The position numbers were made by a program, and so were the translations under genes. Of a stretch of DNA of 42,655 nucleotides, positions 39,644-42,276 are shown one piece after another; position 1 is the stretch's first letter; every line of letters begins with the position of its first letter. The notes under the pieces are model-generated. The model had not been told where the DNA came from. It searched no databases and was given only the letters and a program-made list of their open reading frames with translations. Where the stretch lies: assembly GCA_902785065.1 (NCBI GenBank), contig CACZXH010000006.1:1-42655 (forward strand). Direction: 5' to 3'. This stretch comes from an uncultured Bacteroidia bacterium. Lineage in GTDB: Bacteria; Bacteroidota; Bacteroidia; Bacteroidales; UBA932.

Positions 39644-40824
39644 TCGACACGAACGAGAATGTCCGGTATGACTGTTTCCGGGGCTGCGTGATCAGCGGCA
39701 ACGAAGAGGCGGGGGTGGAGGAAATCCGCTACCGCCAGGGCTGCTGCAAGCTGGAGGTGTACGACTACCTCAAGGGCATCGGCCAGGAACAGTACAACAA
39801 CTACTTCGAAGTCCGTTTCAAGAATACCCGCAAAGGCTTCTATGTCAATGCTTCCGGCCAGACCATCAAGACAGGCGACCTCGTCGTCGTAGAGGCCCAG
39901 ACGGGCCATGACCTCGGCATCGTCACGCTGGAGGGCCCGATTGTCGCCCGTCAGATGAAATGCCGGGGCGTGGACCCTGACAAAACGGTTTTCCGGAAGA
40001 TTTACCGCAAGGCGAAGACTTACGACATCGAGCGCTGGCAGGATGCCATCGCCCGGGAGCAGGAGACGATGATCCGCTCGCGCGTGCTGGCGGCGAACCT
40101 GGGCCTGGAGATGAAGATCGGGGACGTGGAGTTCCAGGGCGACGGCACGAAAGCCATTTTCTACTACATTGCCGACGGCCGCGTGGACTTCCGCCAGCTG
40201 ATCAAGGATTTCGCCGAGGAGTTCCACATCCGGGTGGAGATGAAGCAGATCGGCGCCCGCCAGGAAGCCGGCCTGATCGGCGGCCTGGGTATCTGCGGCC
40301 GCGAACTGTGCTGCGCGAACTACATCACGGAGTTCAAGTCCATTACCACCTCTGCGGCGCGGGTCCAGGACCTTTCTTTGAATCCGCAGAAGCTCGCAGG
40401 CCAGTGCGGCAAGCTCAAATGCTGCCTGAACTACGAGGTCTCGAACTACATGGACGCGCACTCGCGCATTCCGAAGGTCTCCGAACCGCTGGAATTCGAG
40501 GACGGCCTGGCCTACCTGGTGAAGACGGACATCCTGGCCGAGACGATGTACTTCTCCTACGAGAAGGGCTCCCTCGCCAAAATGTATCCGCTCCCGGCCT
40601 CCGAGGTCCGCGAGATCATCATGATGAACCGCAACGGCCAGAAGCCTGAAACGCTTCTCCCGGATGCCGAACCCACGGCGCCGGAATTCGTCACCGCCGT
40701 CGGCGACGACAGCATCTCCCGTTTCGACGAGGCCCGCAAGAAGAAGCGCCGCAACAAGAACCGGAACAACAAGAACAAGGGCAACAAGGGCGCAACCGGA
40801 AACAAACCGAAGAAAGATGCATAG
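39640..40824 (+). CDS. ricT: PSP1-domain protein RicT-like
   Basis: A protein of 394 residues. The PSP1 domain with its cysteine set is recognisable: GLIGGLGICGRELCC, GQCGKLKCCLNYE and ICGRELCC together give the four cysteine positions of the Fe-S cluster in RicT (YaaT). In Bacillus the Ric complex works with RNase Y in RNA processing; the role in Bacteroidota is unproven. The C-terminus is a basic tail rich in lysine, arginine and asparagine (about 365-394). Its last codons, GCA TAG, form the outer end of the palindromic element at 40819. Confidence 0.9.
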   Translation: MIDTNENVRYDCFRGCVISGNEEAGVEEIRYRQGCCKLEVYDYLKGIGQEQYNNYFEVRFKNTRKGFYVNASGQTIKTGDLVVVEAQTGHDLGIVTLEGPIVARQMKCRGVDPDKTVFRKIYRKAKTYDIERWQDAIAREQETMIRSRVLAANLGLEMKIGDVEFQGDGTKAIFYYIADGRVDFRQLIKDFAEEFHIRVEMKQIGARQEAGLIGGLGICGRELCCANYITEFKSITTSAARVQDLSLNPQKLAGQCGKLKCCLNYEVSNYMDAHSRIPKVSEPLEFEDGLAYLVKTDILAETMYFSYEKGSLAKMYPLPASEVREIIMMNRNGQKPETLLPDAEPTAPEFVTAVGDDSISRFDEARKKKRRNKNRNNKNKGNKGATGNKPKKDA

Positions 40825-40938
40825 ACCGGGTATGACATACCCAAACCGTCGCTTCGCGACCCCTCCCATAAATGGGCCCCTCCCTCTTATGCGGCCGAGG
40901 GTGGCCACAGGTTTGGGTATGTCACACCCGGTCTATGC
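40819..40938 (-). repeat. Composite palindromic element, copy 1 (ricT/gldH junction)
   Basis: A 120-bp element. A 62-bp core (40848-40909) is enclosed by 29-bp inverted arms: left 40819-40847, beginning GCATAGACCGGGTATGAC, right 40910-40938; they pair at 28 of 29 positions (mismatch A40832/C40925). The core holds three small hairpins: GTCGC-TTC-GCGAC, CCCAT-AA-ATGGG and CCCTC...GAGGG. Copy 2 at 41948 has the same core with one 3-base indel in the middle loop, but different arms. Core orientation is given as the strand with more stable structure (GCGAAGC hairpin). Not a terminator: the stem lacks a T-tract. Confidence 0.85.
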
Positions 40939-41347
40939 CGTATTACTCTTATTCTTTATCTTCACGGGTTGTAAGGAACCGATGTCGGTGGAGAAGTTCG
41001 TGAAAGGGGAGGGGCCGTATACGTTCTTCGTGGACATGAGCGACAGTACGGCGTCGTATGATTTTGATTTGTACACAAGGGTCGATGCGCCGGTGGATTC
41101 GCTGCGGAAACTGGCGGCGCTGCCGCTGCAGGTGACGTGGACGTCGCCCACGTTCCATGTGTTCCGCGAAGAGGTGTATCTGCCCATGGAAGGGAAGATG
41201 TCGCTCTTTTCCAAGCAGGTGCGGGCGCCGTACCGGGCTGGGGTCCGGCCGGAGGAATGGGGCCCGTGGCAGGTGGTCGTGCGGGTGCAGGACCCGCCGG
41301 AGGGCTTGTGCGGCATGGGCCTGGTCGTTGCGAAAAACCGAGACTGA
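40919..41347 (+). CDS. gldH: GldH-like gliding-motility/secretion lipoprotein
   Basis: A protein of 142 residues with a lipobox (LLLFFIFTGC), so lipid-anchored. The remainder (VRVQDPPEGLCGMGLVV and VFREEVYLPM) resembles GldH, an uncertain component linked to type IX secretion or gliding; the holB-ricT-gldH order supports this. The start ATG 40919 lies inside the right arm of the palindromic element at 40819. An upstream ATG at 40817 is in frame and would add a 34-residue extension encoded by the element (containing RRFATPP), but 40919 gives a proper lipoprotein signal. Similarity to GldH is moderate. Confidence 0.55.
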   Translation: MSHPVYAVLLLFFIFTGCKEPMSVEKFVKGEGPYTFFVDMSDSTASYDFDLYTRVDAPVDSLRKLAALPLQVTWTSPTFHVFREEVYLPMEGKMSLFSKQVRAPYRAGVRPEEWGPWQVVVRVQDPPEGLCGMGLVVAKNRD

Positions 41348-42276
41348 TGGGACACGGCAAACTCAAGAAATTCGCTGAAAACGAGACGTTCCGCTGCCTG
41401 CTGCAGCCGGACGCGTCATCGGTATTGGCGAAACCGGAAGGCTCCCGGGAACTGGTCCTGCGGGACCATGCGATCAAGGGGAACTGGAACCGGGATATGT
41501 TCGAAAAGCCCCAGCCGATCGTGCTGGAACTGGGTTGCGGCAAGGGGGACTACACCATCGCCCTGGCCCGGCGGCATCCGGAAATGAACTTCATCGGCGT
41601 GGACATCAAGGGCGCGCGCCTGTGGAAGGGCGCCAAGGAGGCCACGGAGGAAAAGATGGGCAACGTCGCCTTCCTCCGCACCCGCATCGAGTTCATCGAC
41701 GCCTTCTTCGGTCCGGGCGAGGTCTCCGAAATCTGGCTCACCTTCTCCGATCCGCAGCTCCGCGGCAGCGAGAACGCCCGCCTGACCTCCCCGCTTTTCC
41801 TCCAGCGCTACCGCCGTTTCCTGAAACCCGACGGCATCGTCCACCTCAAGACCGACTCCCGCTTCCTCTACGAATACACCCAGTCCGTCATCCGCGCCAA
41901 TAATTTGGAAGTGCTCGCATCGGGTACGGACATCTACCATGATGGTATTCGGACAGGGGTAACTCTTGAAAACCGTCGCTTCGCGACCCCTCCCATCAAA
42001 GATGGGCCCCTCCCTCTTATGCGGCCGAGGGTGGCCACAGGTTTTCAAGAGTCACCCCTGCCCGAAAAAGATGAATGGGATATCGACTCCATATTTGAAG
42101 TGCAGACTTTCTACGAGACGATGTTCCTGAAAATGGGCCTGCCGATTACGTACCTGGCGTTCCGGCTGGAGCATGAGGGGGAGGGGTTCGCGTATCCGAC
42201 GGATTTCGATGCGGCCTATTGGCGCGAGGCCGAAGGCCCCCGCCGGTCGTTCAGCCATCAGCCCACGAAGCAGTAA
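41347..42276 (+). CDS. trmB: tRNA (guanine-N7)-methyltransferase with element-encoded insertion
   Basis: A protein of 309 residues that methylates G46 of tRNAs. The SAM site ELGCGKGDY is at 61-69, GVDIKG at 84-89, LTFSDPQ at 131-137 and HLKTDS at 166-171. Residues about 201-240 are encoded by copy 2 of the palindromic element (41948-42066) and have no counterpart in the roughly 250-260-residue enzymes of relatives; sequence then resumes with DEWDIDSIFEVQTFYETMF, which matches the conserved 'I-x-T-x-Y-E' end. The insert is basic and proline-rich (RRFATPPIKDGPLPL). The gene shares one base with the gldH stop. Confidence 0.88.
   Translation: MGHGKLKKFAENETFRCLLQPDASSVLAKPEGSRELVLRDHAIKGNWNRDMFEKPQPIVLELGCGKGDYTIALARRHPEMNFIGVDIKGARLWKGAKEATEEKMGNVAFLRTRIEFIDAFFGPGEVSEIWLTFSDPQLRGSENARLTSPLFLQRYRRFLKPDGIVHLKTDSRFLYEYTQSVIRANNLEVLASGTDIYHDGIRTGVTLENRRFATPPIKDGPLPLMRPRVATGFQESPLPEKDEWDIDSIFEVQTFYETMFLKMGLPITYLAFRLEHEGEGFAYPTDFDAAYWREAEGPRRSFSHQPTKQ
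41948..42066 (-). repeat. Composite palindromic element, copy 2 (inside trmB)
   Basis: A 119-bp element with 27-bp inverted arms, left 41948-41974 and right 42040-42066 (25 of 27 paired; mismatches A41953/C42061 and A41961/C42053). The 65-bp core (41975-42039) is the same as in copy 1 except for the middle hairpin, CCCATC-AAA-GATGGG instead of CCCAT-AA-ATGGG. Arm sequences differ from copy 1 apart from the inner ACC/GGT and a GTCAC in the right arm 11 bases from the core. The element is read through by trmB without a stop. Confidence 0.85.

Follow-up and report, generated by a model that had tools for sequence, protein, structure and literature searches.

The window, that is, the whole 42,655-nt stretch of DNA analysed here, contains two copies of an element at positions 40819–40938 and 41948–42066, just as an earlier note on this DNA had described. 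Each copy consists of a fixed core between two arms, of which the right is the inverse of the left. The left arm of copy 1 contains the stop codon of a PSP1-domain gene (PF04468 match) and overlaps the start of a frame that we take to be gldH-like; the piece of this frame tested gave no match in Pfam. Copy 2 lies within a trmB-like methyltransferase gene, with PF02390 (Methyltransf_4) matching the first 200 aa of the product (E 1.3e-25). The features are as follows.

40819..40842, plus strand: left arm of copy 1, 24 nt (sequence, complementarity, comparison with genome G003)
40843..40914, minus strand: fixed core of copy 1, bounded by AAACC..GGTTT, best fold on the minus strand (87.9 bits with the core model R1)
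40915..40938, plus strand: right arm of copy 1, inverse of the left arm with 1 mismatch (complementarity)
40891..40908, minus strand: hairpin P2 of copy 1 (basis as for P2 of copy 2)
40882..40886, minus strand: pseudoknot strand of copy 1 (basis as for that of copy 2)
41347..42276, plus strand: trmB-like methyltransferase gene, open in frame across copy 2 (open frame; PF02390)
41948..41969, plus strand: left arm of copy 2, 22 nt, within trmB (complementarity, comparison with G003)
41970..42044, minus strand: fixed core of copy 2, bounded by AAACC..GGTTT (R1, 93.2 bits)
42045..42066, plus strand: right arm of copy 2, inverse of the left arm with 2 mismatches, both G.T on the minus strand (complementarity)
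42021..42038, minus strand: hairpin P2 of copy 2, GTGGCC-ACCCTC-GGCCGC on the minus strand (covariation, 42 sequences)
42012..42016, minus strand: pseudoknot strand GAGGG of copy 2, partner of the P2 loop CCCTC (covariation, 42 sequences)
41992..42006, minus strand: hairpin P3 of copy 2, which differs among copies (sequence)
41975..41987, minus strand: hairpin P4 of copy 2 with a GAA loop, GTCGC-GAA-GCGAC (sequence)

The two cores matched each other at 116 bits in BLAST and are near-identical, their difference being confined to one hairpin, the short P3, in agreement with the earlier note. Its counts of complementary arm positions, 28/29 in copy 1 and 25/27 in copy 2, were reproduced when the left arm and TIR together were compared with the right side. 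The 21-mer CGTCGCTTCGCGACCCCTCCC occurred twice in the window at up to 3 mismatches and in none of 100 shuffles, and the sole further match in an R1 scan of the window was at chance level (9.8 bits, E = 1.7).

Family and fold of the core

That the pair belongs to a larger family was borne out by many further copies in this genome and its relatives. R1 matched 23 times in this genome; across the genus it hit 50 of the 61 genomes searched, with 0–46 matches each. BLAST with the core (E ≤ 10) found 22 places in this genome, or 18 after removal of three chance-like places and joining of two that were halves of one copy; a stricter DNA search with BLAST matched 25 of 37 genus genomes and none of 24 genomes of other families. 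A core-pattern scan of a species-genome collection returned 44 stretches, 42 of them titled as Bacteroidales or Bacteroidia MAGs, most of these titles naming ruminants or rumen; one stretch each came from Actinomyces and Roseomonas, both with arm scores below threshold. The core had no match in the phage, plasmid and viral-contig collections. Cores were mostly 65–115 nt long and ended in the short terminal complements AAACC...GGTTT or GAC...GTC. We also assembled a set of 153 elements, reduced to 141 by collapsing on the inner arm; since an element had to match the pseudoknot and reach an arm score of 13 to enter, this set is no test of arm complementarity.

Loops of the trmB, yggS, YgiQ-like and murB genes carry elements of different core subfamilies across several species; some of these sites may therefore be insertion hot spots, or the core may be swapped in place. 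Host genes often read through the element. Those named murB, gldH, ribF and RapZ-like are presumptive assignments from their peptides, and the YgiQ-like name is likewise presumptive. At L011 (G000 contig C28), two neighbouring elements of different subfamilies lie in opposite orientation. Contig C84 of G127 (L318, L343) matches a G023 flank at 99% with identical arms, though another G127 match is near 77%, which points either to transfer or to a contig that is foreign to the MAG.

DNA folds of 141 nt had z = −9.8 for copy 1 and −6.4 for copy 2, with none of 200 shuffles equally stable. RNA folds reached −82.3 and −77.1 kcal/mol on the minus strand and −74.4 and −65.1 kcal/mol on the plus strand, and the minus strand of the window copies, as the better RNA folder, is here called the F strand. 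The order along it is arm, AAACC, P2, ATAA, GAGGGAGGGGCCC, P3, GGGAGGGG, P4, GGTTT, arm'. Inside the core is an H-type pseudoknot, formed between CCCTC, the loop of P2, and GAGGG outside the hairpin. The cloverleaf-like fold put forward earlier needs correction on this point: with a hairpin loop paired beyond its own hairpin, in a pseudoknot that covaries, the core is no plain cloverleaf.

In an alignment of 42 copies, 100% of pseudoknot cells were paired, two of the five pairs were changed on both sides (one showing four pair types, the other two) and three were invariant. For P2 (42 sequences), 90.6% of cells were paired and five of six pairs were changed on both sides. The covariation score of P2 plus pseudoknot lay above all 500 shuffles; among five measures, 46 of the 500 equalled the observed value for further pair types, 1 equalled that for both-side changes, and none equalled the remaining three. 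Of the 141 cores, 104 had CGAAG on the F strand and 7 had CTTCG, a bias of which shared descent could be the cause; GCGAAGC is specially stable in DNA. P3 was entirely replaced between the orthologous copies L113 and L005, with the other core parts unchanged.

Arms belong to the insertion site

We measured arm complementarity in loci picked on half the core alone, with a threshold of 13 and a largest shuffled score of 9.2. Seven of the 44 core-pattern stretches lay too near an end, and 33 of the 37 testable loci had complementary arms, which extends to further copies what the earlier note had seen in two; the four misses were the Actinomyces and Roseomonas stretches and two Bacteroidales loci. 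A second sample comprised 60 loci from R1 matches (35 of 37 in G016 and 25 of 40 in G023): 55 contained the motif, and 54 of these had an arm score of at least 12, the other five loci being without the motif and unread. Among the 141 arm-distinct elements, 91.9% of arm pairs were Watson–Crick.

Pairs of elements were then compared by core and arm identity, pairs fetched twice being left out. At core identity of at least 0.999, arm identity was 0.97 at the same site (n = 3) versus 0.54 at different sites (n = 15, one pair of which reached 1.00), with shuffled arms at 0.44. The corresponding values were 0.86 (n = 7) and 0.64 (n = 90, including constant-arm G016 copies) at core identity 0.95–0.999, 0.77 (n = 3) and 0.53 (n = 135) at 0.90–0.95, and 0.58 (n = 3) and 0.49 (n = 302) at 0.85–0.90. 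Since identical cores have near-random arms across sites and kept arms at the same site, these data showed that the arms belong to the insertion site and not to the core, on modest numbers with three same-site pairs at identical cores.

Copying of the arms from nearby DNA was rejected: across 60 elements the best match was 12.47/19 in own flanks versus 12.49 at other loci, and there was no excess of matches within 1.4 kb. Copying from elsewhere in the genome was likewise rejected, the best non-self match of 36 arms against G000 and G023 having E = 0.02. Wholly random arms are ruled out by a weak consensus near GGAGGGTATACCTTC in one clade (32 of 46 anchorable arms used), which reflects either target preference or partial common descent. 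A long-core subfamily in G016 (L208–L211, L213, L214, L216–L222, L225) has near-constant arms (GCGGCGGGTGTCCTCTGGTC...) in many dispersed copies, and its entire unit is missing in G084 at the L208 site.

After insertion, the two arms change together at some sites. Between L005 and L113, CTGCCGG/CCGGCAG became CTGTCGG/CCGACAG in both arms, alongside one unmirrored extra T; five mirrored changes separate L008 and L047, and others were found at L215/G084 and at L128/L140, where the arms differ more than the flanks. The core was reversed in 29 of 68 same-site pairs, which are not independent and for which matching of both flanks was the sole requirement; the 29 include different core subfamilies, which may be separate insertions, and three had core identity of at least 0.85 with arm identity of at least 0.80. 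Inversion of the core with arms nearly kept was seen at L207 and L223 of G016 versus G084 and at L089/L092, and is clear at L207 and at L089/L092. Elements also decay by deletion, in some cases between short repeats. In a single trmB loop of G061, one element (L055) sits within what is left of another, with the frame intact.

Two published studies report that template switching between inverted repeats homogenizes arms and inverts spacers (PMC8604942) and creates and mends stems (PMC8794818). Selection for the stem is therefore not needed, and covariation alone is no proof of it, as template switching is able both to maintain arm complementarity and to flip the core. Both outcomes were seen here, and the published work points to template switching as their probable cause.

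Origin of the stem

At five sites, one arm aligned with a relative lacking the core; the arm windows were chosen, and the absence of the second arm judged, by eye. The number of shuffles as good, out of 5000, was 0 for yggS (G005 versus G019), 4 for the L003 site (G003 versus G062), 29 for the L253 site (versus G071), 37 for trmB (G000 versus G003, comparing IRTGVTLE in the left arm region of copy 2 with IQAGDELE) and 93 for the gldH-like site (G000 versus G003), a weak alignment involving the left arm of copy 1. The yggS-like gene (PF01168) reads through the element. Its coreless form in G019 has EEIIAICEDTPSPIANIRIRG; the element-bearing genes of G005, G061, G000 and G003 have a similar stretch on the protein-right side (CEDIPAP, CEDIPAP, SEGIPSP and SEGVLPP), of which the left arm is the inverse. 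In G062, EDIPAPLKSIRIRG is kept after an unrelated stretch, and the core and second arm are absent. Of 39 readable yggS loci, 25 have a 29-residue loop; that of coreless G019 is 30 residues long and includes the arm residues CEDTPSP, so an arm fits an ordinary yggS loop; by eye, the G000 loop minus both arms is of ordinary length too.

Other sites fit the arrival of both arms as well or better. The murB loop has 52 residues with the element, 11 minus both arms and 18 with one kept, and comparators have 14 and 12 (two coreless genomes) and 16 (a remnant in G003); these lengths therefore favour removal of both arms. At three G023 sites (L251, L253 and L260) no more than the outer portion of an arm is recognisable in the relative, and at L251 and L260 neither arm is. 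Keeping a whole arm at L253 would give a spacer of about 51 nt, versus 1–39 nt in 24 readable relatives. By eye, these three sites showed no obvious direct target-site duplication against comparators from other species. Because the relatives are other species (80–95% identical over the parts compared), a coreless site is possibly a deletion remnant. Such remnants were found at three G003 sites, in trmB of G005 and in yggS of G028, and the coreless yggS of G019 could be one too. The proposal that all coreless sites are pre-insertion sites is ruled out, several being deletion derivatives.

We lean, at slightly better than even confidence, towards a small non-autonomous mobile hairpin of one Bacteroidales genus whose stem is made from the target; we go no higher because the remnants, the murB lengths and the three G023 sites count against it. 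The moving part would be the core with its short terminal complements, pseudoknotted on one strand. At insertion, the 3' end of the target would be extended through the core, the terminal complements would snap back, and a polymerase would then reverse-copy about 20–25 nt of the host DNA next to the core, so that the stem arises from the target. Later template switching between the arms would keep them complementary and at times invert the core in place. That this amounts to a new mode of DNA insertion, in which a core folds back and reverse-copies host DNA so that the inverted target duplication is the stem, with no known transposase or reverse transcriptase, is a more tentative proposal, to which we give somewhat less than an even chance. 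Between selection for a stem and an insertion that copies one arm, the two readings offered by the earlier note, copying is favoured, given that arm sequence follows the site and that five sites show an alignment of one arm to a relative lacking the core; the step is likely and not proven, since murB and the three G023 sites fit a two-arm insertion equally well or better.

Insertion of a whole arm–core–arm unit is unlikely, if still worth serious thought. The arms, whatever their origin, would then change fast, template switching would keep them complementary, and the outer stem would grow by copying of the flank. It would account for the murB loop length, the L251, L260 and L253 sites, the constant-arm unit missing whole from G084, the weak arm consensus and the arms of L128/L140, which diverge more than their flanks; it is harder to reconcile with near-random arms on identical cores at different sites and kept arms at the same site, with the 36 arms lacking a second source in two genomes, and with the five one-arm alignments.

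A structured RNA (an sRNA or cis element) with a closing stem under selection and ordinary spread seems improbable. P2 and the pseudoknot do covary, and F-strand arm mismatches in the 141 elements are more often G.T than A.C (94 versus 54, p = 0.0013; counted by element, 48 versus 24, p = 0.006), an excess that suits a folded RNA, but also a folded single DNA strand. The core is nevertheless inverted at fixed sites, the arms are unrelated across sites, and open frames pass through the element in both orientations (42 sense and 45 antisense among 63 of the 141 elements, chance openness being uncontrolled). The covariance models of Rfam 15 gave no match in the window at gathering score, and the six weak matches up to E = 10 all fell under their own gathering scores.

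Insertion of the core into ready-made palindromes is very improbable: coreless palindromes do exist in trmB of G005 and murB of G003, which we read as deletion remnants, but the other coreless sites inspected by eye had none; the ready-made palindrome that the earlier note named as a refutation thus occurs, in form, at those two sites. Least probable of all is mobilisation, as a retroelement or in the manner of REP sequences, by an RVT_1 reverse transcriptase or a Y1 transposase resident in the genome. Although snap-back would suit target-primed copying and RVT_1 (PF00078, E ≤ 1e-8) is present in 18 of 61 genomes, it was not found in G000 or in 7 of the 10 genomes with at least 20 copies, copy number did not differ with its presence (p = 0.78), and Y1_Tnp (PF01797, E ≤ 1e-8) occurred in 4 of 61 genomes and in neither G000 nor any of the 10 copy-rich ones, several genomes being incomplete; neither enzyme is thus needed as the mover.

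Relation to known systems

Known transposition, to our knowledge, leaves a direct target duplication or none, and a stem remade from each target would imply insertion chemistry of a different kind. Copies read through in core genes would show a selfish hairpin and template switching rewriting proteins. With so many copies per genome, events of insertion, inversion and decay can be counted.

Like MITEs, including ERIC, BOX and RUP, the element is small, non-autonomous and dispersed. MITEs have terminal inverted repeats common to their copies and usually direct target duplications, whereas here only about 3–5 bp are common to copies and each site has long arms of its own, arm identity being 0.54 for identical cores at different sites, with the exception of one G016 subfamily. 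The hairpin with strand preference recalls REP/REPIN sequences moved by RAYT, from which the element differs in that a Y1 transposase was not found in copy-rich genomes. Group II introns, retrons and DGRs are poor matches given the distribution of RVT_1 described above. An integron attC site, with its integrase, conserved R boxes and variable centre, looks like the reverse of this anatomy of fixed centre and variable arms.

We know of no report of Rickettsia palindromic elements (RPEs) whose arms differ per site. RPEs are described as short palindromic repeats present in many copies and in frame in unrelated genes (PMC10969869). The element resembles them in its in-frame insertion in genes, here trmB-like (PF02390) and yggS-like (PF01168), and, on this comparison with the description of RPEs, differs in belonging to another phylum. 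Palindromes from template switching (quasipalindrome correction) share the homogenized arms and inverted spacers (PMC8604942, PMC8794818) but are local mutations, whereas here one core recurs across numerous sites. In Nematomorpha mitochondria, coding palindromes are likewise long perfect inverted repeats within working genes, with no shared mobile core named in the abstract that describes them (PMC6649704). Searches of the open-licence literature turned up no element that combines a fixed core with arms specific to each site. We therefore place the element among the kin of small dispersed palindromic repeats, with a mode of insertion that, if the target-copy step is right, is new within that literature.
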